Assembly: GCA_017512725.1 (NCBI GenBank)
Contig: JAFWEW010000038.1
Span: 1-43,320, forward strand
DNA length: 43,320 bases
Source of the DNA: Solobacterium sp.
GTDB taxonomy: Bacteria; Bacillota_I; Bacilli_A; Erysipelotrichales; Erysipelotrichaceae
Direction of reading: 5' to 3'
In this document: positions 3,242-40,422 of the stretch, one piece after another
Numbering within the stretch: position 1 is the stretch's first letter
Layout of the letters: every line of letters starts with the position of its first letter
Program-made: the position numbers and the translations under genes
The notes under the pieces: model-generated
What the model saw: the letters and a program-made list of their open reading frames with translations, nothing else
Told to the model about the DNA's origin: nothing
Databases searched by the model: none

Positions 3242-5770
3242 ATGCATTCAATTCGAACGAAATTCACATTTACAGTTGTGAGTGTAATCATTATTACGCT
3301 GAGCATTGCTGCTGCGATTGGCGTTATTTCAATCCGAAATCTGGGAAGAGACGATGCGGATCAGATGATTCATTTAACCGCCACAACAGGCGCAATGAAT
3401 CTGGAGCAGTATTTTGAAAGCGTAGAACACTCCGTTCGGACTGTATCAATGCTGGTTGCGGACAGCTTTGAAGGCATGCCGTTTGAAGATCTGAACAGCC
3501 AGGTTGAGCGTGCCCGTAACCTGTTCGGCAGAATTGCGTACAACACAAATGGGGTGCTTACCTATTATTTCAGGATCGATCCGGAGATATCGGAAGACGT
3601 AAAGGGCTTTTGGTATGTATATCAGGACGGAGAATTCAAAGAACACGAAGTAACAGACATCACCCAGTATGATACCAGTGATACCTCTGCGCTTGTCTGG
3701 TTTACGGTCCCGAAGGCGACAGGGGAAGGTGTATGGCTTCCTCCGTATTACACGGAAAACCTTGGTGTCCGGGTTATTTCCTATAATGTGCCCGTTTACT
3801 GGAAGGATCAGTTTGTCGGTGTAATCGGCATTGAAATAGATTATGAGATGTTAAAGCAGGAAGTGGAAAACATCTCGATCTTTATGAGCGGTTATGCATT
3901 TATCCTTGATGAAGACTCAAATGTCTTTTATCACCCAATGCTGGATTCCGCACAGCTGAACCTGGAAGCGACAGCAATCGATGAGCCGGAGCAGTTTATC
4001 GGCAGTAATCACATACGGTATACCTATGAGGGAATTGCGAAGGAAGCTGTCTGGATTCCGCTGAGCAACGGCATGCGGCTGTATGTATGTGCACCGGTGT
4101 CTGAAATCAACAGCGGATGGATTACCATGATCAAGAATATCCTGATTGCTCTGTTTGTGATTCTGGCGATTTCAACTGCAGCTATGATGCGCTTTGCAGA
4201 ACACATTACAAAGCCGCTTGGTGATCTTACAGACGCCGCAAAGCAGGTGGATGAGGGCAATTATGATTTTTCACTGGAATATGATGAAGACGATGAAATC
4301 GGCATTCTGACCCGTACATTCAAACAGCTTGCGGCTAATACAAAAGAGAAGATTACAAATGCCAGAAAAATGGCGGCAATCGATCCTCTGACCGGTATCA
4401 AAAACAAACATGCCTATGCGCAGTGGGAAGAGGAAATTAATAAGAGAATCAGGGAAGGGGAACAGGAACCGTTTGCGGTTGTCGTCTGTGACATCAATAG
4501 TCTGAAGACTGTCAATGATCTGTACGGACATAAGGAAGGCGATACCTGCATAAAGAATGCATGCGCAAGAATCTGCGGTGTTTTCAGCCACAGTCCGGTG
4601 TTCCGGGTCGGCGGCGATGAGTTTATCGTGATTCTTACCGGGGAAGATTATATTCAGCGGAAAAAACTGCTGGAACGGATCAATGCACTACCGAGGGATC
4701 TCTCAAAGATCAGGGCCGGAGAAACCGTTTCTGCCGGCATGGCAGATTATGACAGGAATACGCATCCTTCGCTTCTGAGCGTTACTGAAGAAGCCGACAA
4801 AGCGATGTACGAGAAGAAGCAGTACCTGAAAAAAACCATAGCATCAGAGAAAATGGGATCCGACAGTATTCAGGACACGGAGTACATTCCGGTTATTCAT
4901 GCGCGTAAAACCATTCTGATCGTTGATGATGTGGAAATGAACCGTGATGTCATGGGGGAACTTCTTGCGGATGACTATAATACGTTGTATGCGGCGGATG
5001 GCGTCGAAGCCCTGGAGGTACTGCGCAGCCATAAAGATGAAATCGACCTTGTTCTCCTCGACCTGATCATGCCGAACAAGAATGGCAGGGAAGTAATTGC
5101 AGAAATGCAGGTTGATGAGGATCTGATGGATATCCCGGTGATCTTTTTAACCGCCGATCAGGCTTCGGAACTCGATTGCCTGAAGACCGGTGCCATGGAT
5201 TTCATTCCAAAACCATATCCGGATATTGAGATCGTAAAAGCCCGCATCGCCAAGTGTATCGAACTGGCGGAAGACCGCGCTCTGATACGCTATACCGAAC
5301 GCGATAAGCTGACGGGTCTGCTTAACAGGGACTATTTCTTCCGGTATGTCAGCCGGCTTGACCATCTGTTCAAAGACAGTACGTTAGATGCAGTGGTCTG
5401 TGATGTAAACAGATTCCATACTGCCAATAAGGAATTAGGGCGGCAGTTTGGAGATCACGTACTGCGTGAAATCGGTATCTGCATGCGGAACCTTGCGCGG
5501 AAAACCGGCGGTATCAGCTGCAGAGAAAGCGGAGATACGTTCCTGCTTTACTGTCAGCATCAGGATGATTATGAAAAACTCCTGAAGGAGTACTTTTCCG
5601 ATATGCTTGCTCAGAAAAAGATCGCAGAGAATATCCGTATCCGGTTTGGTGTGTTCACCGATGCGGGACAGGAACCGGATATGGAAGAGCGGTTTGAACG
5701 TGCCAGAATTGCGGCAGACAGAGTCAAAAATGATCCGGAGAAGATTTGCGGCTTCTACGACCTGAACTGA
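3242..5770 (+). CDS. Membrane sensor diguanylate cyclase: Cache-HAMP-GGDEF-REC-degenerate GGDEF
   Basis: An 842-residue c-di-GMP signalling protein. Order: membrane segment (about 10-32), extracellular double-Cache sensor (about 40-285), second membrane segment (about 295-315), HAMP (about 318-370, ITKPLGDLTDAAKQVDEGNY), GGDEF domain (about 385-545) with intact FRVGGDEF at about 457-461 and DxLT-type DPLTGIKN, then a CheY-like receiver (about 556-680, ILIVDDVEMNRD, phospho-acceptor Asp in LVLLDLIMP, Lys in PKPYP), and a second GGDEF fold (about 690-842) whose signature has become ESGDTF and so should not be catalytic. No RxxD inhibitory site precedes the active motif. A receiver placed between two GGDEF domains in a transmembrane protein is unusual and implies both ligand and phosphorelay input. 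AAGGAGG is 10 bases before ATG. Confidence 0.92.
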   Translation: MHSIRTKFTFTVVSVIIITLSIAAAIGVISIRNLGRDDADQMIHLTATTGAMNLEQYFESVEHSVRTVSMLVADSFEGMPFEDLNSQVERARNLFGRIAYNTNGVLTYYFRIDPEISEDVKGFWYVYQDGEFKEHEVTDITQYDTSDTSALVWFTVPKATGEGVWLPPYYTENLGVRVISYNVPVYWKDQFVGVIGIEIDYEMLKQEVENISIFMSGYAFILDEDSNVFYHPMLDSAQLNLEATAIDEPEQFIGSNHIRYTYEGIAKEAVWIPLSNGMRLYVCAPVSEINSGWITMIKNILIALFVILAISTAAMMRFAEHITKPLGDLTDAAKQVDEGNYDFSLEYDEDDEIGILTRTFKQLAANTKEKITNARKMAAIDPLTGIKNKHAYAQWEEEINKRIREGEQEPFAVVVCDINSLKTVNDLYGHKEGDTCIKNACARICGVFSHSPVFRVGGDEFIVILTGEDYIQRKKLLERINALPRDLSKIRAGETVSAGMADYDRNTHPSLLSVTEEADKAMYEKKQYLKKTIASEKMGSDSIQDTEYIPVIHARKTILIVDDVEMNRDVMGELLADDYNTLYAADGVEALEVLRSHKDEIDLVLLDLIMPNKNGREVIAEMQVDEDLMDIPVIFLTADQASELDCLKTGAMDFIPKPYPDIEIVKARIAKCIELAEDRALIRYTERDKLTGLLNRDYFFRYVSRLDHLFKDSTLDAVVCDVNRFHTANKELGRQFGDHVLREIGICMRNLARKTGGISCRESGDTFLLYCQHQDDYEKLLKEYFSDMLAQKKIAENIRIRFGVFTDAGQEPDMEERFERARIAADRVKNDPEKICGFYDLN

Positions 5771-11890: not shown

Positions 11891-11920
11891 TTGTAACTCA
11901 TGAAATGATCGGATTATAAT
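11891..11920 (+). promoter_or_regulatory. Promoter of the leader of the GTPase-nuclease gene
   Basis: TTGTAA (11891-11896), 18-base spacer, TATAAT (11915-11920). Predicted start near 11927, only about 5 bases before the leader peptide ATG. Confidence 0.65.
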
Positions 11921-11931
11921 AACGGTGTCGC

Positions 11932-12006
11932 ATGTGTGCGCTGCGTCTGAGGCGCGTCTGTTTCATTCGCAGGCGAACGTCCGCCGCAACGGACCGTGCA
12001 TACTGA
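11932..12006 (+). CDS. Arg-rich leader peptide (24 aa)
   Basis: An open frame ATG to TGA between the promoter at 11891 and the terminator at 12012. The peptide starts MCALRLRRVCFIRRRTSA and ends TDRAY, with seven Arg among 24 residues. The triple-Arg codons (11968-11976) coincide with bases that can form alternative pairings with the terminator stem. The start has essentially no untranslated leader and no Shine-Dalgarno. That it is translated is inference from position and design, as in known ribosome-mediated attenuators upstream of ribosome-targeted resistance genes. Confidence 0.45.
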   Translation: MCALRLRRVCFIRRRTSAATDRAY

Positions 12007-12011
12007 GAAGG

Positions 12012-12049
12012 AGGCGAAATCGGAACTTAGCACCGGGTTCGCCTTTTTT
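12012..12049 (+). terminator. Attenuator-type terminator before the GTPase-nuclease gene
   Basis: AGGCGAA (12012-12018) pairs with TTCGCCT (12038-12044), followed by T residues to 12049. An identical AGGCGAA lies in the leader peptide coding region at 11971-11977, and TTCGC at 11966-11970 can pair with GCGAA at 12014-12018, which would destroy the terminator stem. Competing pairings of this kind are the mark of attenuation. Confidence 0.65.
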
Positions 12050-12067: not shown

Positions 12068-12076
12068 TGGTATAAT
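12068..12076 (+). promoter_or_regulatory. Extended -10 promoter at the GTPase-nuclease start codon
   Basis: TGG-TATAAT at 12068-12076. The predicted transcript start is at or next to the ATG at 12084, and there is no Shine-Dalgarno before this ATG, so a leaderless transcript is likely from this promoter. Confidence 0.5.
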
Positions 12077-12083
12077 TCTTCCG

Positions 12084-14570
12084 ATGAAACGAACAACGAT
12101 TGGCATTCTCGCACATGTTGATGCGGGAAAGACAACCTGTATTGAATCCATGCTGTTCCACTGCGGTGTGATCCGCAAGATGGGCCGGGTGGATAACCGG
12201 GATGCCGCACTGGATACCGATCCGCAGGAGAAAGCGCACGGCATAACGATCTATGCGAAAGAGGCATCGATCACCTGGAAGGATACCGAAATCTTTTTGA
12301 TTGATACCCCAGGTCATGTGGATTTCTCACAGGAGATGGAACGGTCTCTGTCGGTTATTGACATGGCAGTTGTTCTGATCAGCGGTCTGGACGGTGTACA
12401 GGCGCATACCGAAACAATCATGAATCTTCTGGAACAGTACCGAATCCCGGCGGTATTTTTTGTAAACAAAATGGATATTGCCCAGAAGGGAGAAGACGAG
12501 CTGCTCCAGCAGCTGGAGAACACCTTTCATAACTGTATTGCCTGGAACCGGGACGATACCATGGAAAATGCGGCAGTTGCCAATGAGACAATGATGGAGG
12601 AGTTCCTGGAAACCGGAACGGTTAGTGACGAACGGATCGCACAGGCGTTTTCCCAGAGGCTGTTCTTTCCGGTATTCTTTGGTTCTGCACTGAAGGATTT
12701 CGGTGTAACGGAACTGCTGGATGGCATCGATCAGCTGAGTGAAGCGAAACCGATGCCAAACGAATTCGGTGCCCGGATCTTCCGCGTGACCAACGGACCG
12801 GAAGGAAGAAGAGTGCACCTGAAAGTGACCGGCGGGACCCTGCAGGCAAAGCAGAAAGTCATCGGCGAAGAAAAAGCGGACCGTATTGAAGTGCTGAACG
12901 GCACTACAATGGTTACCGTAAATGAAGTGACCGCAGGAGAGATTGCGGTGGTCAGCGGTCTGAAATCGGCGGAAGCCGGTTCGGGTCTTGGCTTTGAGCC
13001 GGATAAGGCGGGTTCTCTGCTGGAACCGTGCATGGTATATGAACTGGAAATCGAAAATGACCGGGAAAAGCGCATCCTGTTTGAAGTCTGTCAGAAGCTG
13101 TCGGAAGAAGATCCGACACTGGGTGTCATCAGTGATGAGGAAAGCGGTTCGATTCAGATTTCCATCATGGGAGAGATGCAGAAGGAGATCCTCCAGCATC
13201 GCATCATGGAAGAAACCGGTCTCGATGTGAGCTTCGGTACCGGAAAGATTATTTACCGTGAAACGATCCAAAGCCCGGTCTGCGGTGCGGGGCATTTTGA
13301 ACCGCTGCGTCATTACGCCGAAGTTCATGTGCGTCTTGAACCGGGGGAACGGAACAGCGGCATCACTGTACGAAGTGAAGTGAGCAGCGATGAACTGGCT
13401 GCACACTGGCAGAATACGATTCTTTCCGCACTGCGTACGATCCGCCACAAAGGCGTTTTATGCGGTGCACAGCTGAGTGATGTGACGATTGTGCTGACAG
13501 CCGGAAAAGGGCACCTGAAACATACGGAAGGCGGAGACTTCCGCAATGCCGCAAGACGTGCGGTACGCCAGGCTCTGATGAAAGGCACCAGCATTCTTCT
13601 CGAACCATACTGCAGCTATGAGATCCGCATCGCACCGGAATATGTTTCCCGTGCACTTTTTGATCTCGAGAACCGCAAGGCAACGGTATCGGTAGAAGAA
13701 ACCGAGGGAATTGTTCTGATCCGCGGAGAAGGGCCAAGGCGTACAATGCTGAATTATCAGGGCGAGCTGACGGCCTATACAAGAGGCACTGGTACCTGCA
13801 GGCAGGTATCCTGCGGCTATCGGGAATGCCAGGAACCGGAAGTGATCATACAGGAATCCGGTTACGATCCGCTGACGGATCTCAGGAACCCGCCGGGATC
13901 GGTGTTCTGTACCCATGGAAGTTCGTTTGCCGTCTCCTGGGAAGAAGCGGACGCATTTATGAATATCCCGGTCAAGGACCGCAGTGAGACCGGTACCTAT
14001 TCGCACCGTACCTATCATGTTTCCGAAGAGGACCTGAAATCGATCATCGCCTCCGAATCCGGAAACAACCGCAGACAAACCAAGAAAAAGCCGGCTGAGA
14101 AACCGGAAGAAGTATACCGTTCAAAGCCAACACCAAATCTGCCTGCGTGTATGATCGTTGACGGATATAACATGATTCATGGCTTTGAAGAGACCAGACA
14201 CCTGGCGGAAGCGGATATCACCAGTGCCAGAGAACGTCTGATCGATGAACTGGCAGCCTATCAGGCCTACGTACGGATTCGCATGATCGTCGTATTTGAT
14301 GGCTATAAACGAAAGGACAACTATGGTTCGCATCAGAAACAGGGAATGTTTGAAGTGGTTTATACCAGGACGGGAGAGACCGCAGATGAGTATATCGAAA
14401 AGCTGACTTCTGAACTATCCCGCAGCTATGAGCTGACCGTTGCGACAAGTGATGCGTTGATCCAGAATGCGGTCTTTGCCCAGGGTGCCGCAAGGATCAG
14501 TGCACGGATGCTGGAAGAAGAAATCCTGCGCGTGAAAAAAATGTTCGCAAACGGGACGGGCGGGATATAA
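12084..14570 (+). CDS. TetM-like translational GTPase fused to YacP/Rae1-type NYN nuclease
   Basis: 828 residues. Residues 1-about 650 form a full EF-G/TetM-type GTPase: G1 AHVDAGKT (10-17), G3 DTPGHVDF, G4 NKMD, then domains II to V with a TetM-like end (LLEPYCSYEIRIAPEYVSRA, RGEGPRRTMLNYQGEL). In domain IV the tetracycline-displacing loop of TetM (YSPVS) is replaced by GKGHLKHTEGGDF, so tetracycline protection is doubtful. A Lys-rich linker (about 655-688) leads to a complete NYN domain (about 690-828): MIVDGYNMIHG, MIVVFDGYK, TGETADEYIEKL, VATSDALIQN, all four acidic sites present. That module matches YacP/Rae1, an endonuclease acting in the ribosomal A site. An upstream in-frame extension to 11925 crosses the terminator and is not used. 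Role inferred: ribosome-dependent mRNA cleavage or ribosome rescue. Confidence 0.88.
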   Translation: MKRTTIGILAHVDAGKTTCIESMLFHCGVIRKMGRVDNRDAALDTDPQEKAHGITIYAKEASITWKDTEIFLIDTPGHVDFSQEMERSLSVIDMAVVLISGLDGVQAHTETIMNLLEQYRIPAVFFVNKMDIAQKGEDELLQQLENTFHNCIAWNRDDTMENAAVANETMMEEFLETGTVSDERIAQAFSQRLFFPVFFGSALKDFGVTELLDGIDQLSEAKPMPNEFGARIFRVTNGPEGRRVHLKVTGGTLQAKQKVIGEEKADRIEVLNGTTMVTVNEVTAGEIAVVSGLKSAEAGSGLGFEPDKAGSLLEPCMVYELEIENDREKRILFEVCQKLSEEDPTLGVISDEESGSIQISIMGEMQKEILQHRIMEETGLDVSFGTGKIIYRETIQSPVCGAGHFEPLRHYAEVHVRLEPGERNSGITVRSEVSSDELAAHWQNTILSALRTIRHKGVLCGAQLSDVTIVLTAGKGHLKHTEGGDFRNAARRAVRQALMKGTSILLEPYCSYEIRIAPEYVSRALFDLENRKATVSVEETEGIVLIRGEGPRRTMLNYQGELTAYTRGTGTCRQVSCGYRECQEPEVIIQESGYDPLTDLRNPPGSVFCTHGSSFAVSWEEADAFMNIPVKDRSETGTYSHRTYHVSEEDLKSIIASESGNNRRQTKKKPAEKPEEVYRSKPTPNLPACMIVDGYNMIHGFEETRHLAEADITSARERLIDELAAYQAYVRIRMIVVFDGYKRKDNYGSHQKQGMFEVVYTRTGETADEYIEKLTSELSRSYELTVATSDALIQNAVFAQGAARISARMLEEEILRVKKMFANGTGGI

Positions 14571-14625
14571 TAACCTTGTTTTTTCAAATACATTCATTCA
14601 TTGTTTGATTATTTTCGGGAGACAT

Positions 14626-15222
14626 ATGGCAAAAGATTATTTTTCATTTGAAACGATCCGTGACCGAAACGGGGTTGTGATCTGCTATCACGTGACTGCG
14701 ATCGGTACGATCGAAAAAGACGGTGTTACCCGCATGCGTTCCGACATGGGCGATGACGGGGACAAGAAGATGGCATTCGGCAAACTGACGATCCGCGGCA
14801 AGGACCGCATGATCGGGTTATTGTTGCGGGAGACCGGAAGCCGGGCGTACTGGCGTTCCACGGATGATGACGGCCCTTACTGCATTCTCAGTTTTGCGGC
14901 GCGAGAAAAACACGCAGAAGAAGTCTATAACTTCAATGAAGGCGACCGTGTACTGATCGAAGGACGCGCCTATGTGCGTCAGAATTCGAATAGTTCACCG
15001 GACCGTCTGCCGGAGCTCAGCATTACCGTCAACAGCACCTTTGTGCTTGGCCGCAAACGCCGGCCCCAGACGATGACCAGTTCCATCATTCCGCAGAAGC
15101 GTCATTCTGCGGCAGAAGAGGAAAACCCGGATGACGCACCGATGATGTCATTTGATCCGCAGGAGGCCATCACGGCAGAGCAGGAAGAGGGCGAAGCAGC
15201 TCCTCAGGAGGATATCGCATGA
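14626..15222 (+). CDS. Single-stranded DNA-binding-like OB-fold protein (putative)
   Basis: 198 residues from ATG 14626 (GGGAGA just upstream; an in-frame TTG at 14605 is less likely). The region around 85-140 (ILSFAAREKHAEEVYNFNEG, DRVLIEGRAYVRQ) resembles the SSB OB-fold strand pattern in which an enzyme-like FxxxAxxxxAE...F.KGdxV.VeGr.y motif occurs. The C-terminus is acidic and low complexity (EEENPDDAPM, EQEEGEAAPQEDIA), as in SSB tails, but lacks the usual DDDIPF tip. It overlaps malQ by four bases. The middle insertion (MRSDMGDDGDKKMAFGKL) is atypical, so the assignment is moderate. Confidence 0.5.
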   Translation: MAKDYFSFETIRDRNGVVICYHVTAIGTIEKDGVTRMRSDMGDDGDKKMAFGKLTIRGKDRMIGLLLRETGSRAYWRSTDDDGPYCILSFAAREKHAEEVYNFNEGDRVLIEGRAYVRQNSNSSPDRLPELSITVNSTFVLGRKRRPQTMTSSIIPQKRHSAAEEENPDDAPMMSFDPQEAITAEQEEGEAAPQEDIA

Positions 15223-18226: not shown

Positions 18227-19912
18227 ATGAAATATAAGCGATTAGGCGAAATGCTAGTGGATGTCGGTGCGATCACCGAACAGCAGCTGGAAGAGGCTCT
18301 TGCCGGTCAGAAGGGTAGCGGCAAGCGTCTTGGTACTTATCTGGTTGATGAAAAGTACATTTCAGAAGATCAGCTGATTGAGATTCTGAGACGCCAGCTC
18401 GGTATTGACTTTATTGACCTTAACAAGGCAAAGATCGATCCGAGTCTTGTGACGCTTGTACCGAAGAATATTGCCAAATCAAACCGTGTTGTACCCGTAA
18501 AGCTGGATCGGGATACGCTGTACCTTGCTATGGAAGACCCGATGAACTTCCCGGCAGTAGAACAGGTTAAGAATATTACCAAGAAACGCGTCATTCCGAT
18601 GATTGCCTATACCAGAGCGATTGACCGTGCACTTTCCGTTCTTTATGACAACGAAGGTGCAGCAAAGGCAATGGAAGAGATGCGGGAAGAACAGGGATTT
18701 GCAACCGTTGATGAAACCGCAAATGTTCTGGACAATGACGATACCAACGCAGCTCCTACCGTAAAACTGGTCAACTCCATCATCGAGCGCGGCATTATCG
18801 AAAAGGCGAGTGATATTCATGTCGAACCGAGAGAAAACGACATGTGTGTACGGATCCGTGTCGACGGCCGTCTGAATGAGATCCTGCAGATCCCGAAGGA
18901 ACTGCAGTCTGCAGTCATTTCCCGTTTCAAGGTCATGGCGAATATGAACATTGCAGAACGCCGTATTCCGCAGGATGGACGTGCACTTGCCAGAAGACCG
19001 GACGGTACGAACATTGACCTCCGTCTCAACTCTCTGCCAACCATCTATGGTGAAAAGATCGTTATCCGACTGCTCACCCGTGAACAGGGGATCCTCAATC
19101 CGAAGGGTATCGGTATTACCGATGAGGATCTGCCGAAGTTTGACCGTCTCATGAAGAATACCAGCGGTGTTGTACTGATTGTCGGTCCGACCGGTTCCGG
19201 TAAGACTTCCACCCTGTATACCATGATCAACGCTCTCAAGAGCGATACCGTAAACATGATCTCGCTGGAAGATCCGGTGGAATTCCAGATCGAAGGCGTT
19301 ACCCAGGTAGCGATCAATGAAAAAGTAGGCCTGACCTTTGCCAGTGCACTCCGTGCCTGCCTCCGTCAGGACCCGGATATTATCTGTATCGGAGAGATTC
19401 GAGACGGTGAGACAGCCGAAATCGCAATGCGTGCTGCCATGACCGGTCACTTCGTTCTCTCGACCATTCATACCGAAGATGCCTGTTCGGCAATCGACCG
19501 TCTGAAGGATATGGGCGTTGAACCGTACCTGATCGCAGGATCGGTAAGAGGTGTCATCTCACAGCGTCTGGTACGTAAGATCTGCCCGAACTGCAGAGAA
19601 GAGACCACACCGGATCCGATGCTGCTGGACTATGCCGGCATCCAGCCGGATCCAACAAAGAAGTTCTATCACGGTCGTGGCTGTCACCAGTGCTTCGATT
19701 CCGGTTACCGCGGCAGAACCGGTGTATTTGAAATCATGGCAATGAATTCCAAACTGCGCGATATTGTCGCAAGCGGCGCAACCGGAACGGAACTGCGCCG
19801 GCAGATCTCTTCAACCGACTTTACCCCGATGATCGTGAACGGCAGAAAGCTGATCGATGCGGGTGTCACAACAGTAGATGAAGTAGTACGTACGATCGTA
19901 ACTCTGGAGTAA
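18227..19912 (+). CDS. pilB: Type IV pilus assembly ATPase PilB
   Basis: 561 residues, hexameric extension motor of the type IV pilus at the cytoplasmic face. N-terminal GspE/PilB (MshEN-like) domain about 1-150 (RLGEMLVDVGAITEQQLEEA, GIDFIDLNK); such domains can bind c-di-GMP, notable given the two GGDEF proteins nearby. The ATPase core has Walker A GPTGSGKTST (about 320-329), an Asp box (LRQDPDIICIGEIRDGET) and a His box (HFVLSTIHTEDA). The zinc tetracysteine is complete: CPNC (about 451) and CHQC about 37 residues later. First gene of the pilB-pilT-pilC run; 6 bases to pilT. Confidence 0.96.
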   Translation: MKYKRLGEMLVDVGAITEQQLEEALAGQKGSGKRLGTYLVDEKYISEDQLIEILRRQLGIDFIDLNKAKIDPSLVTLVPKNIAKSNRVVPVKLDRDTLYLAMEDPMNFPAVEQVKNITKKRVIPMIAYTRAIDRALSVLYDNEGAAKAMEEMREEQGFATVDETANVLDNDDTNAAPTVKLVNSIIERGIIEKASDIHVEPRENDMCVRIRVDGRLNEILQIPKELQSAVISRFKVMANMNIAERRIPQDGRALARRPDGTNIDLRLNSLPTIYGEKIVIRLLTREQGILNPKGIGITDEDLPKFDRLMKNTSGVVLIVGPTGSGKTSTLYTMINALKSDTVNMISLEDPVEFQIEGVTQVAINEKVGLTFASALRACLRQDPDIICIGEIRDGETAEIAMRAAMTGHFVLSTIHTEDACSAIDRLKDMGVEPYLIAGSVRGVISQRLVRKICPNCREETTPDPMLLDYAGIQPDPTKKFYHGRGCHQCFDSGYRGRTGVFEIMAMNSKLRDIVASGATGTELRRQISSTDFTPMIVNGRKLIDAGVTTVDEVVRTIVTLE

Positions 19913-19918
19913 AAGACT

Positions 19919-21013
19919 ATGAGAAAAACATTGGAAGAAATTATTGTACAGGCAGCAGCAGACGGCGCAAGTGATATTCACCTGACAGCCGGCCAGCCCC
20001 CGAAGTACCGTCTCCATGGCGAGATTCAGTCCATGAACGATGAGCCGCTCTCACCGCAGGACTGTATTGAATATGCCAAGGAACTGGTAGGGGATGACTG
20101 GAAACAGATCGAAGAAATCGGCGAACTGGATGCGGCCAAGACCGTAGCCGGACACCGTATCCGTATTAACCTGTACAAGGTCAGCGGCACGATGTCTGCC
20201 TGCCTTCGTCTGTTATCTGACTGGATCCCGAAGATCGAAGAGCTGCATCTGCCGGAAGTCGTTACAACGTTCCCGACCTACAACAAGGGCATCGTACTGG
20301 TAACCGGGGAAACCGGTTCCGGTAAGTCAACTACGCTTGCAGCAATTCTCGATGCAATCAACCATACCCGTAATGAGCACATCATTACTCTGGAAGACCC
20401 GATCGAATATATCTATCAGCCGGACCGGTGTGTCATCTCACAGCGAGAAGTCGGCACGGATACCAGATCCTATGCCGATGGCTTAAGAGCTATCCTGCGT
20501 GAAGACCCGGATATCATTCTGATCGGTGAAATGCGTGATGGCGAGACCATTGAAACCGCATTAACGGCTGCAGAAACCGGCCATCTGGTATTCGCAACCC
20601 TGCATACCAACAGTGCCAGTGATTCCATTGACCGTATTGTCGGTACGTTCCCGGCAGAGCACCAGCAACAGATCCGTCTGCAGCTTTCTACAACCCTGAA
20701 AGCAGTTCTTTCCCAGCAGCTTCTGCTGAAGAAGGGCGGCAAGGGAAGAATCGCAGCCTGTGAGGTTATGATCTCCACACCTGCGATCCGCAACCAGATC
20801 CGGGAAGGCAAGACACCGCAGATGGAATCTGCGATTCTTACCTCTGCCAAGGAAGGCAGTGTCACCATGGATAACTATCTGCTCAAGCTTGTAAAAGAAG
20901 GCATGATTGAACCGGAAACCGCTGTCGAAGCAGCAAACAAGCCGGAGTATATCAAGCAGAATACACAAGGGCTTGGCATGGGAATGGGTATGGGTATGAG
21001 ACCCAGGAGGTAA
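19919..21013 (+). CDS. pilT: Type IV pilus retraction ATPase PilT
   Basis: 364 residues, retraction motor of the pilus (twitching motility, DNA uptake, adhesion). Walker A GETGSGKSTT (about 130-139), Asp box LREDPDIILIGEMRDGET, His box HLVFATLHTNSASDSIDR, and the PilT-type C-terminal AIRNQIREGKTPQMES segment corresponding to the AIRNLIREGK motif. The C-terminus ends in an unusual Gly-Met repeat, GLGMGMGMGMRPRR. The absence of the N1D/zinc module and short N-terminus separate it from PilB. It sits between pilB and pilC and presumably is co-transcribed. Confidence 0.95.
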   Translation: MRKTLEEIIVQAAADGASDIHLTAGQPPKYRLHGEIQSMNDEPLSPQDCIEYAKELVGDDWKQIEEIGELDAAKTVAGHRIRINLYKVSGTMSACLRLLSDWIPKIEELHLPEVVTTFPTYNKGIVLVTGETGSGKSTTLAAILDAINHTRNEHIITLEDPIEYIYQPDRCVISQREVGTDTRSYADGLRAILREDPDIILIGEMRDGETIETALTAAETGHLVFATLHTNSASDSIDRIVGTFPAEHQQQIRLQLSTTLKAVLSQQLLLKKGGKGRIAACEVMISTPAIRNQIREGKTPQMESAILTSAKEGSVTMDNYLLKLVKEGMIEPETAVEAANKPEYIKQNTQGLGMGMGMGMRPRR

Positions 21014-21019
21014 TTGCAT

Positions 21020-22234
21020 ATGATTACGTATAAGTACAGTGCAATGACTCCAGACGGCGCCAAGGTCAACGGTGTCGTCGAAGCAATCGATGAGTATGCG
21101 GCAGTTGAGCGTATCAAGGCAACCTGTCCGGTTGTCATCAGCATCAGTGAAGTAAAGAGTGCAGATGAAAACAGCATTCTGAACATGGAAATCGGATCAA
21201 ATAAAGTGGATGCCAAGGCACTTGCTGTAATGTGTTCACAGTTCTCTACGATCCTGACTGCTGGTGTTGATATCGCCTCCTGTATGGAGATGATCGGCAA
21301 CCAGACGGAAGACAAGAAACTCAAAAAGATGTTGTTAAACAGCGCAAAGGATGTCGCTCAGGGTAACTCCATCGCAACCAGTATGGAAAAGAACTGCCCG
21401 GGACTGCCGGTTACCTTTATCGAAACGGTTAGGGCTGGAGAGATGTCCGGTACACTGGAACAGAGTTTTGCGACATTGCAGGAATACTTCGAGAGAAACT
21501 ACCAGTTAAAAGAAAAGGTCAAGTCAGCGTTGTCTTATCCGATCTTCGTTCTTGTAGTAGCTGTGATAGTTGTCATGGTAGTTATGATAAAAGTCGTACC
21601 GACTCTGACTGCAGTATTTGGTGAAATGGGCGGTGAACTTCCGTTTATTACCAGACTCCTGATTTCCATCTCTAACTTCTTCTCAAAGTGGTGGGCATTA
21701 ATTCTCTTAATCTTCATTGCGGCATTTCTTTTATTCAAGTTCTATACCAGTACCGAAAAGGGAAAACTGTGGTGGGGGAAGACACTGCTTACCATGCCAG
21801 TCATGGGAAAGATCAATACGTTTTCCGGCAGCGCCGATTTTGCCTCAACTATGTCAGCGTTACTGAGTGCAGGTCTTCCGGTAACCAATGCTTTGGAAGT
21901 AACTGCAAAAGTGCTGGATAACTATGTACTGGGAACCGAAACAAACATTCTTTCCCAAAAAGTACAAACCGGTATCAAACTTGGTGATGCGATGCGGAAT
22001 GCTGAAGTGTTTCCACAGACGTTGACCGAAATGACAGCCATCGGTGAGAATACCGGTGAACTGGAGAAAACACTCAAGACAGTTGGCGATTATTATTCAA
22101 AGGAAGCCGATTACGCGATGACTGCGGCAATCAGTAAACTGGAACCGACACTGCTGGTATTCCTTGCGATATTTGCAGGATTTATCGTTATAGCAATCTA
22201 TATGCCGATGTTCACCATGTACAACCTGTTCTAA
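21020..22234 (+). CDS. pilC: Type IV pilus inner-membrane platform protein PilC
   Basis: 404 residues, GspF/PilC family platform protein. It carries two T2SSF repeats, each about 120 residues ending in membrane segments: KALAVMCSQFSTILTAGVDI and SADFASTMSALLSAGLPVTN. Membrane spans lie near 165-190, 215-240 and 370-400. PilC links PilB/PilT motors to the growing pilus. The ATG at 21020 follows AGGAGG by nine bases; a TTG two codons earlier is not needed. It ends the ATPase-platform operon; the pilin has its own promoter. Confidence 0.95.
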   Translation: MITYKYSAMTPDGAKVNGVVEAIDEYAAVERIKATCPVVISISEVKSADENSILNMEIGSNKVDAKALAVMCSQFSTILTAGVDIASCMEMIGNQTEDKKLKKMLLNSAKDVAQGNSIATSMEKNCPGLPVTFIETVRAGEMSGTLEQSFATLQEYFERNYQLKEKVKSALSYPIFVLVVAVIVVMVVMIKVVPTLTAVFGEMGGELPFITRLLISISNFFSKWWALILLIFIAAFLLFKFYTSTEKGKLWWGKTLLTMPVMGKINTFSGSADFASTMSALLSAGLPVTNALEVTAKVLDNYVLGTETNILSQKVQTGIKLGDAMRNAEVFPQTLTEMTAIGENTGELEKTLKTVGDYYSKEADYAMTAAISKLEPTLLVFLAIFAGFIVIAIYMPMFTMYNLF

Positions 22235-37394: not shown

Positions 37395-37539
37395 GTCATG
37401 CCCTCAACCTTCCTGATACCTATTATATGAATTTCAGTCCTGATTTGGTATTGGTAAGATCCTCAAAAATATTGTGAAATTCATCTCAAAACTATTAATT
37501 ATTTATAGTAAAATAGGAATACAAACACAGGTTTTTTCA

Positions 37540-40422
37540 ATGACAATCCGTGATTTTATTAAAAATATTTCTCACGTCCTGGGATTTGATGAAAAGAATC
37601 CCGCCGTTTTTGAATACATCGATACCATGAACATGCGCATTTCCATTCCGCTTGCGCTGTATACTTTGGTCGTCGAATATTTCATGTACAACCGCTCCGT
37701 ATTTTTATGGGGTCTGATACCGAAGAAAATGTACAATCTTCTGTTCTATGTACTGGCCTTTGCGGCAGTGCAGCTTTTGATTGTTGCGCTTCTGTATGAG
37801 ACCAGAAAATACCGGAATGCGATTGTCTGCCGGATCAGCCTGTACTTTTATCTGTTTGCCTGCTTTATTATTGGCCAAAGTATCGCAACCTATGACTATT
37901 CTGTCGGCAAGCAGGCATTTATCTTTCTGCCCATGGTTGCCTGGGCATTTGCACTGGTGCTGATGTTTCCGCTGGTGAGTATCTTCGGCGGTTATCTCAG
38001 CTTTATTCTGATTCCGGATATTACCAATACCAGAGTCATTCTTTCGGACTATGTGAACCGGGTTCTTCTGATCTTCGCCGTCATGATCGTAATCGTATCG
38101 ATTGTGCGCTGGATCGATCAGCTGGGCAACGGTCGCAATACGGTCAAAATTCAGAAGATGAATGACAGGCTGAAAGAGATCTCAGTTACCGATGAACTGA
38201 CCGGCATCAAGAACCGCTACGGTCTGCATTCCGATACGGAAAAGCTCGTCGGCAGAAAACTGGTCGTCATGATGTCGGATATTGATGACTTCAAATACTA
38301 CAATGACACCTATGGCCATGACACCGGTGACAAGGTGCTTAAGCATATGGCAGAAACGCTGTGCAGCACCTTTGGCAAAGAAAATGTATATCGGTTTGGC
38401 GGGGATGAATTTCTGCTCATCCTGCCGGAATGGGACCAGGTGCGTCTGCTCAGTGCATTGTCGGAATGGAAGAGCAGGTTCCATCTCTTTGACTGCGACG
38501 GCAAAAAGCTTCATCTTGGATCGACAGCCGGATATACCTATGGCATGTGCCGGAATGCAGACGATATTCAGAAGATGGTATCGGTTGCGGATGCCCGTCT
38601 CTATGACGGAAAGATGACGCATAAAGGAAGTTCGATCGGCTGTGAATATGACCCGAACAAACCAACAGATGATGATTCGCTGAAGCAGATGGAAAAAGCA
38701 CTGCGTTCCGGTGAAATGGATACGCTGACCAAACTGCCGAACATGATGTACTTCCGGTCCAAGGCAGACCTTCTGGCAGACGGACTGCGCCTGAACGGAA
38801 AGAAACCGGTCGTGGCGTATCTGAATCTCACAAACTTCAACAACTACAACCGGAAATACGGCTTTGAGGCAGGGGACAACCTACTGCTGATGGTCGCAAA
38901 TATACTGACCGAGAAATTCAAGAGTGAGCTGGTATGCCGTTTTACGGATGACCATTTCACAATTCTGACAACCCGAAATGAACTGGAAGAGAAGCTTCGT
39001 AAGATTGCGGAAGAGATTCAGAGAAACAGCGGAGAAGCCAGTGTTTCTCTGAATGCCGGTCTCTATGAAGTGGAAGATGCGGGAATCGATATCTCCCGTG
39101 CCTGTGAAAACGCACGTCAGGCGATGGAAAATGTCAGCGGCGGTGAGCTTTTCTACTGGTACGATGAGGAAATGCATCACAAGCAGGAAATGAAGCAGTA
39201 TATCCAGGACAACTTTGTCAAAGCGCTTGAAAACGACTGGTTCGATGTTGTCTATCAGCCGATCATCCGTTCCGTAAACGGATTTGTCTGCGGTATGGAA
39301 ACACTGCCAAGGTGGAACGATCCGGAACATGGGATCATTGAACCGGAAGTATACGTACCGATTCTGGAAGAGAGCCATCAGATCCTGGAACACGATCTCT
39401 TCGTGCTGGATCACGCGATCAAGGATTTCTTCGCATTCCGTGATGCCGGGTATTCTCCGGTGCCGTTTGTCATGAACCTGTCGTTCCGTGATTTTGACCG
39501 GGAAGACATGGTGGAAAAGATCGTGGAGATGACAAAAGACATTGATCACTCCATGGTACATTTTGATATCAATGCCTCGGCTGTTTCCAAAGCAGGAGGC
39601 TACCTCCGGAAAGCACTGAATACCCTGGCGGAAAAGGGGTATCAGTTGTGGATGGACGGCTACGGCGGTGAAAATTCCACGATCGATATTCTCTATAACT
39701 TCAACATGCACGGCATCAAACTGGATCTGCGTTCGCTCCACGATATCCGTGACGGCTCCAGTCAGTCGATCCTGGTGGAACATATCATCTCCATGTGCAA
39801 GGAGATGGGCATCTCCACGCTTGCCCTGGGCGTTGAATCCAAGGAAGAGGAAGAGTTCCTGATCCGGAAGGGCTGTGAATACCTGCAGGGATTCCTGTAT
39901 TCCTCGAGTGTAACGTTTGAAGAATGCGTATCCGGGGAGATCTTCAAATACATGAAGTTTGAACCGCTGGATATGGAAGGCTACTACAATGCGATCAGTC
40001 ATGTGGATCTTTCCAAGCCGACCCGAATCGAAAGCAATGACAGTCTGGAATCGAAAACGGAAGACCTTCCGGCTGCGATCTGTGAATTCCGGGACGAACA
40101 GTTCAAGGTGATGGCATGGAATGATTCGTTCATTCCGTTCCTGAATTCTCAGGGAATCCCGAATCTTGACATCTACCAGTCCCGTTTGAACTACCCCGGT
40201 TCGGAACTTCGGGCGCGGCACCTGGAACTGTGCAGACAGTTGAAAAATGCCGACGGATGGAAGACCATGACGCTGGGAAGCCACGAGGAAAAGTTCACCG
40301 GTTCCTTCCATCTGGTTTCTACCGATCCGTATGATGAGAATGCGTTCTCGGTTCTTGGGGTTGTCGCTGACATGCGTCAGTATGAACCTGCAAATGGAAG
40401 CACATTCAAGGACAGAAGATAA
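37540..40422 (+). CDS. Membrane c-di-GMP protein: GGDEF, degenerate GGDEF, degenerate EAL, PAS-like
   Basis: 960 residues from ATG 37540; an upstream in-frame ATG (37474) lies before the -10 TAAAAT at 37509 and is unlikely. Six membrane spans occupy about 20-195. The first GGDEF (about 215-375) is intact: DELTGIKNRYGL and YRFGGDEFLLIL. The second (about 395-550) has CRFTDDHF in place of GGDEF. The EAL domain (about 565-820) starts VVYQPIIRS and METLPRW (ETL for EAL), with VMNLSFRDF, but the catalytic DDFG segment is MDGYGGE and LEITES-like is HFDINAS, so hydrolysis is unlikely. A PAS-like domain ends it (about 860-955). Probably a diguanylate cyclase with ligand-sensing or c-di-GMP-binding side domains. 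No clear ribosome site precedes the start. Confidence 0.85.
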   Translation: MTIRDFIKNISHVLGFDEKNPAVFEYIDTMNMRISIPLALYTLVVEYFMYNRSVFLWGLIPKKMYNLLFYVLAFAAVQLLIVALLYETRKYRNAIVCRISLYFYLFACFIIGQSIATYDYSVGKQAFIFLPMVAWAFALVLMFPLVSIFGGYLSFILIPDITNTRVILSDYVNRVLLIFAVMIVIVSIVRWIDQLGNGRNTVKIQKMNDRLKEISVTDELTGIKNRYGLHSDTEKLVGRKLVVMMSDIDDFKYYNDTYGHDTGDKVLKHMAETLCSTFGKENVYRFGGDEFLLILPEWDQVRLLSALSEWKSRFHLFDCDGKKLHLGSTAGYTYGMCRNADDIQKMVSVADARLYDGKMTHKGSSIGCEYDPNKPTDDDSLKQMEKALRSGEMDTLTKLPNMMYFRSKADLLADGLRLNGKKPVVAYLNLTNFNNYNRKYGFEAGDNLLLMVANILTEKFKSELVCRFTDDHFTILTTRNELEEKLRKIAEEIQRNSGEASVSLNAGLYEVEDAGIDISRACENARQAMENVSGGELFYWYDEEMHHKQEMKQYIQDNFVKALENDWFDVVYQPIIRSVNGFVCGMETLPRWNDPEHGIIEPEVYVPILEESHQILEHDLFVLDHAIKDFFAFRDAGYSPVPFVMNLSFRDFDREDMVEKIVEMTKDIDHSMVHFDINASAVSKAGGYLRKALNTLAEKGYQLWMDGYGGENSTIDILYNFNMHGIKLDLRSLHDIRDGSSQSILVEHIISMCKEMGISTLALGVESKEEEEFLIRKGCEYLQGFLYSSSVTFEECVSGEIFKYMKFEPLDMEGYYNAISHVDLSKPTRIESNDSLESKTEDLPAAICEFRDEQFKVMAWNDSFIPFLNSQGIPNLDIYQSRLNYPGSELRARHLELCRQLKNADGWKTMTLGSHEEKFTGSFHLVSTDPYDENAFSVLGVVADMRQYEPANGSTFKDRR

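Follow-up and report, generated by a model that had tools for sequence, protein, structure and literature searches.

The analysed stretch of DNA from Solobacterium, a gut-type bacterium (43,320 nucleotides, hereafter the window), encodes on its forward strand an EF-G/TetM-like translational GTPase joined in one gene to a C-terminal YacP/Rae1-type NYN nuclease (Table 1). The frame runs unbroken from an ATG at 12084 to a stop at 14568-14570; an upstream GTG at 11925 is a mechanically feasible alternative start, although the alignment of relatives favours the ATG. The protein matches the Pfam families GTP_EFTU, EFG_III, EFG_IV, EFG_C and NYN_YacP, each well past its cut-off. The uninterrupted 828-residue frame across both domains, described in an earlier sequence-only reading, is borne out by the same open fusion in more than 100 further genomes. 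This recurrence rules out an assembly chimera or a frameshift artefact, and the fusion is therefore real. Many of the 101 aligned fusions are merely 38-63% identical to the window protein; the active-site residues of both modules are 97-100% conserved across them, and neither catalytic centre has decayed in any of them.

Table 1. Features of the fusion gene and of the region directly upstream, in window coordinates.
Feature	Coordinates	Strand	Basis or remark
Terminator-like hairpin, GGCGAA..TTCGCC + T6	12013..12049	+	-19.6 kcal/mol; just upstream of the fusion gene
Extended -10 element, TGGTATAAT	12068..12076	+	Ends 7 nt upstream of the fusion ATG
Fusion gene, EF-G/TetM-like translational GTPase with C-terminal YacP/Rae1 NYN nuclease	12084..14570	+	828 aa plus stop
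G domain, residues 4-218	12093..12737	+	Pfam GTP_EFTU, E 5e-52
Domain II, residues ~219-313	12738..13022	+	Position and EF-G fold similarity
Domain III, residues 314-385	13023..13238	+	Pfam EFG_III
Domain IV, residues 387-501	13242..13586	+	Pfam EFG_IV
Domain IV tip loop, GKGHLKHTEGGDFR, residues 474-487	13503..13544	+	Alignment to TetM/TetO
Domain V, residues 505-584	13596..13835	+	Pfam EFG_C
Subfamily-specific extension, residues 585-632 (48 aa)	13836..13979	+	Conservation in fusions
Low-confidence linker, residues 633-687 (~55 aa)	13980..14144	+	pLDDT 40-56; short predicted helix 648-658
YacP/Rae1 NYN nuclease domain, residues 690-820	14151..14543	+	Pfam NYN_YacP, E 7.5e-41
Catalytic acid D693 (Rae1 D7)	14160..14162	+	Alignment
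Acid D739 (Rae1 D53)	14298..14300	+	Alignment
Catalytic acid D768 (Rae1 D81)	14385..14387	+	Alignment
Acid D790 (Rae1 D104)	14451..14453	+	Alignment

The GTPase and nuclease modules

Domains G, III, IV and V and the G motifs are all present, placing the GTPase in the EF2 family. Conservation among the 101 fusions is ~99% for the motifs AHVDAGKTT, DTPGH, NKMD and SAL, and the switch-II histidine of DTPGH (H78) is also conserved. Domain IV is the best-conserved region of the GTPase, with a mean column identity of 0.78 and the motif GHFEPLRH, and K479, H480, T481, G483, G484, D485, F486 and R487 of its tip loop are kept at 97-100%. The Pfam domains and a Foldseek match of about 680 columns to ribosome-bound EF-G agree with the earlier description of a complete EF-G/TetM-type GTPase. 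EF-G of T. thermophilus, S. aureus and E. coli shares the whole GTPase fold, and H477 of the tip loop aligns with T. thermophilus H573 (the EF-G H573A structure, 1fnm, is among the Foldseek matches), whereas the remainder of the loop is EVDSSEMAF in EF-G and LKHTEGGDF in the fusion. The score against the EF-G equivalog TIGR00484 is 272 bits (cut-off 659.4), and the Solobacterium genome encodes a separate EF-G of its own.

Domain V is followed by the subfamily-specific extension, in which Y594, D599, S606, F608, C609, G612 and V617 are invariant among the fused members. It has no Pfam match and also forms the C-terminus of unfused sister GTPases, where clear counterparts are found. It is a possible new ribosome- or metal-binding element.

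The AlphaFold2 model, built with a 61-sequence alignment (mean pLDDT 84.6, pTM 0.64), contains two confident modules connected by a low-confidence stretch at about 633-687. This disordered linker is poorly conserved (mean identity 0.32 in the 101 fusions); measured by a slightly wider definition, it has 59-68 residues in the genus, and Clostridia have 69-116.

The nuclease module scores 140.3 bits against NYN_YacP (curated cut-off 24.6) and is matched to the B. subtilis YacP/Rae1 crystal structures (5MQ8 and 5MQ9, E 1.2e-21), with which it shares the acids D7/D53/D81/D104, T79 and S103. Across the 101 fusions D693, D739, D768, S789 and D790 are 97-100% conserved. The sequence-only reading had proposed a full NYN domain with all acidic residues: the four acids stand, but the domain is not full, as positions 1-133 of the 166-position profile are matched and 134-166, the C-terminal tail of Rae1 (~33 profile positions), are missing. 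The sequence after R808 is 20 residues long in the window protein and 12-21 in the genus; the sister family has 35-41 residues there, and standalone copies, where measured, have about 45-49. The tail matters for standalone Rae1, because R166P, a change within it, was recovered as a loss-of-function mutation in the rae1 gene of B. subtilis (PMC6613710); in the fusion, its role may have been taken over by the GTPase. B. subtilis Rae1 is a single-domain protein of ~170 residues encoded behind rlmB and retains the tail, whereas the NYN domain of the fusion is attached to a GTPase, has lost the tail and is encoded away from rlmB.

Distribution and origin of the fusion

The Solobacterium genome has no NYN_YacP copy other than the fusion. 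NYN_YacP is present in 52 of 60 genomes comprising this one and its relatives, in frames nearly all of about 830-880 residues, and above the cut-off in 41 of 393 genomes of the phylum (completeness at least 95%). No standalone rae1 was confirmed among those 41 genomes; the sole short NYN frame in the phylum sample (G313) is a frameshifted fusion. The short frames that were checked comprise breaks inside a fusion (G313 and G475) and a frame at a contig end (G055). A shortened fusion is also found in the phylum sample (G152:C7, locus L204, 960-2615, minus strand), where a 615-aa frame joins residues ~1-385 to ~640-808 and domains IV and V and the extension are apparently absent.

In 245 Clostridia genomes (completeness at least 98%), open frames with NYN_YacP form two size classes. 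The fusion is present in 77 genomes, one of which also has a standalone Rae1, and standalone Rae1 without the fusion in 84 (75 listed as short frames and nine assigned by exclusion); the two forms exclude each other with p 1e-16, a value not corrected for phylogeny. Among the matches listed in a scan of named genomes are Erysipelotrichaceae, Lachnospiraceae, Oscillospiraceae, Clostridiaceae and others. The fusion is wider and older than the sequence-only reading had supposed. It is also dispensable, since, among the high-completeness genomes sampled from the family, about one in two does without it.

The gene rlmB lies directly upstream of standalone rae1 in 12 of 14 inspected Clostridia loci, and the rlmB of Solobacterium itself (G000:C42) has no rae1 downstream; the fusion therefore appears to have replaced an ancestral rlmB-rae1 arrangement.

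The nuclease and GTPase trees are consistent with one fusion event. In the nuclease tree, fused and standalone domains are split with 100/99 support and a single exception: a standalone nuclease placed inside the fused clade (G586, loci L205/L189), with no GTPase remnant upstream and an unfused GTPase elsewhere in the genome, an apparent fission of the fusion. In the GTPase tree, 20 unfused Clostridia proteins lie apart from all fusions. The unfused GTPase of Ligilactobacillus sits on the fused side, probably through loss of the nuclease part.

These unfused sister GTPases, annotated as "translation factor GTPase family protein" and found on a Ligilactobacillus salivarius megaplasmid and in 21 of the 245 Clostridia, are ~650 aa long. 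They have the same extension as the fusion and, in most Clostridia copies, the same tip motif KHT-E/S-GGDFR, but end just past SVFCxHGxGFxVxW....MH in the extension, without a linker or NYN domain, and most of the Clostridia carriers encode Rae1 separately. Of the 21 genomes with the unfused GTPase, 18 also have standalone Rae1 and none has the fusion (Fisher p 0.0007 for the pairing with Rae1, evaluated in Clostridia only and not corrected for shared ancestry). The two genes are not adjacent where both lie on one contig (for example in G517 and G591). In another 66 Clostridia genomes Rae1 occurs with no such GTPase, which shows that the nuclease can do without it. The pattern is what one would expect if two partner proteins had become fused at a later stage, yet the dependence is one-sided. 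A joint function of the two modules is favoured by the distribution, in which standalone Rae1 gives way to the fusion and the unfused GTPase tends to accompany Rae1.

Possible roles at the ribosome

Domain IV of EF-G enters the ribosomal A site. Tet proteins enter it by the same domain (PMC4342817, PMC4750697), and Rae1 attacks mRNA in this site (PMC12320835, PMC6613710). The most probable reading, at roughly 0.6, is that the fusion works in the A site as a factor driven by GTP, which either brings in the Rae1 nuclease tethered to it or gives up the site to this nuclease. The sequence-only reading's proposal, a GTPase bringing the nuclease to stalled or drug-bound ribosomes, is thereby partly supported. 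Ribosome binding, cleavage in the A site, the order of events and the link to tmRNA would all follow from these relatives. As the join is old and widespread and replaces a separate Rae1 gene, the fusion is probably a built-in factor for ribosome and mRNA surveillance, rather than the tetracycline-resistance gene of its usual label.

In the proposed sequence, the GTP-bound GTPase would bind the factor site of a ribosome with an empty or blocked A site and push domain IV, with its tip H-x-K-H-T-x-G-G-D-F-R, into the A site, clearing or probing it. The GTPase would then hydrolyse GTP and withdraw, and the NYN domain on its linker of ~55 residues would occupy the vacated site and cut the mRNA at the codon within it. 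The cleaved message would be degraded and the ribosome on the truncated mRNA freed by tmRNA, which rescues ribosomes carrying cut mRNA (PMC12320835) and is present in the Solobacterium genome. In its lineage the fusion takes the place of the separate rlmB-linked rae1 gene. Since domain IV and the nuclease by homology both target the A site, sequential hand-over on a long flexible linker fits better than simultaneous docking of both modules, which seems unlikely. Weighing against the main reading are the loss of the Rae1 tail in this genus, the 66 genomes that have Rae1 alone and the dispensability of the fusion. A more general proposal, offered tentatively, is that the fusion is a drug-independent quality-control factor in which the tip characteristic of this GTPase subfamily opens the A site for Rae1, whether tethered or a separate partner, with GTP hydrolysis timing the swap and so coupling clearance, mRNA cutting and tmRNA rescue.

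Alternatively, two housekeeping functions may have been joined by chance, with an ordinary Rae1, a GTPase that is an unrelated EF-G paralogue (a recycling, assembly or translocation helper) and a linker that is just a tether, with no hand-over. The 66 genomes with Rae1 alone, the few with the unfused GTPase and no Rae1 (G493, G567 and G643) and the flexible, poorly conserved linker would suit such a history, which is nevertheless unlikely given the enrichment of the unfused GTPase with Rae1 and the absence of decayed catalytic centres among the fusions. Even in the genome where the nuclease has become separate again, an unfused GTPase is also encoded.

The same architecture, a Tet protein with a YacP-like NYN RNase, was reported in "ten species of clostridiales" by Atkinson 2015 (BMC Genomics, PMC4342817). 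Those authors classed the proteins under Tet and proposed from sequence, without experiment, that they represent a possible resistance mechanism. A tetracycline ribosomal-protection protein with an added RNase part would agree with tet_protect being the closest NCBIfam model, with the sister position of the fusion GTPase clade to the Tet clade on the EF-G-rooted tree and with the names TetM, TetW, TetO and TetS given by PGAP to relatives. The scores, however, fall far below the curated cut-offs (377.9 bits against 775 for tet_protect and 254 against 1100 for the Tet M/W model), and in the maximum-likelihood GTPase tree the fused and unfused members form one clade of their own (100/99), separate from Tet(M,S,W,Q) (100/99) and from EF-G (100/100). 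TetM and TetO (3J9Y, 4V6V) are, like the fusion, five-domain EF-G-like GTPases, with ~29% identity over an alignment reaching residue ~580. What sets them apart from it is loop III at the tip, the C-terminal extension, the family score and their place in the tree.

The difference at the tip concerns the loop regarded as functionally key in Tet(M) (loop III, PMC4750697). The TetM/TetO loop GLYYSPVSTPADFR aligns without gaps onto GKGHLKHTEGGDFR of the fusion, in which YSPVS, kept by all four Tet proteins fetched, is missing and a different, almost invariant loop (HLKHTEGG in the window protein) stands in its place, in agreement with the earlier observation that the tetracycline-contacting loop is replaced. 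Near full-length matches occur in just two of 72,556 plasmid records, both large replicons (250-520 kb), and 100 loci showed no repeated gene context of the sort that goes with mobile resistance; a plasmid-borne resistance gene is rejected on the plasmid count. The earlier view that drug protection is not the obvious role is thus supported: sequence, loop and tree all set the GTPase apart from TetM, which makes drug protection an unlikely main role, and a resistance mechanism of the kind proposed in 2015 is highly improbable. The TetM/TetW/TetO/TetS labels on subfamily members outside the known Tet group, for example on Ligilactobacillus salivarius pHN3 (L145) and an Agathobacter rectalis plasmid (L146), are likely misannotations.

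It has also been proposed (2006/2015) for the YacP domain that it matures or degrades rRNA or tRNA, in which case the GTPase might serve as a ribosome-assembly checkpoint. YacP adjoins the gene for the 23S methyltransferase RlmB in the ancestral arrangement, and LepA-like GTPases are implicated in ribosome assembly (PMC12787274). Against this, Rae1, the experimentally characterised NYN_YacP member, acts on mRNA during translation (PMC12320835, PMC6613710) and the GTPase retains domain IV, which in EF-G and TetM reaches the decoding site, making an rRNA or tRNA role very doubtful. Anti-phage defence was rejected, with no PADLOC match.

Compared with the 2015 set, the GTPase described here lies outside Tet, and the fusion occurs in more than 100 genomes including Erysipelotrichaceae and takes the place of standalone Rae1. 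The architecture is already known; what is added is this replacement, the origin in one fusion event, the distinctness from TetM, the two-gene counterpart and the wide spread. No experimental account of a GTPase-NYN fusion was found in the searchable literature, which does not extend to the main Rae1 papers, and within that scope the sequence-only reading's statement that none was known still holds. If the fusion is indeed an A-site factor handing over to a tethered nuclease, many gut Clostridia and Erysipelotrichaceae couple a translational GTPase to in-ribosome mRNA cutting in one protein. This would offer a way into the question, still open for Rae1, of how a nuclease acting in the A site gets into the ribosome, and would give a function to a large GTPase subfamily labelled as tetracycline resistance in public genomes. 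This label may inflate resistome counts in gut commensals. The unfused GTPase and separate Rae1 of other Clostridia provide a natural two-gene version for genetics.

Upstream region and flanking genes

No Shine-Dalgarno sequence precedes the fusion ATG in the window. In 10 of 19 loci from the genus, a -10-like hexamer lies 5-13 nt ahead of the ATG; for other ORFs the figure is ~5 of 130 (p 2e-7, with a rough control and uncertain starts). The closeness of the -10 element to the ATG together with the lack of a Shine-Dalgarno sequence suggests that the fusion mRNA is leaderless, as predicted from sequence. Further upstream, 11891-12049 contains a promoter-like site, a small Arg-rich ORF of 24 codons (MCALRLRRVCFIRRRTSAATDRAY, 11932-12006) and the strong terminator hairpin, and could be an attenuator or a small RNA.

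Across 100 loci, the fusion has no conserved operon partner beyond close relatives. Downstream, a 205-aa ORF (14605-15222) with no Pfam match, SSB/OB-fold-like by eye, is followed by a 4-alpha-glucanotransferase gene, an order retained in close relatives only (L037-L039). Elsewhere in the window, 18227-22234 encodes in a row a T2SSE + MshEN ATPase of type II/IV secretion type, a second T2SSE ATPase and T2SSF, a predicted type IV pilus or competence-like cluster. Two large c-di-GMP proteins are also encoded, with the domain orders Cache-HAMP-GGDEF-receiver (3242-5770) and GGDEF-EAL (37474-40422).
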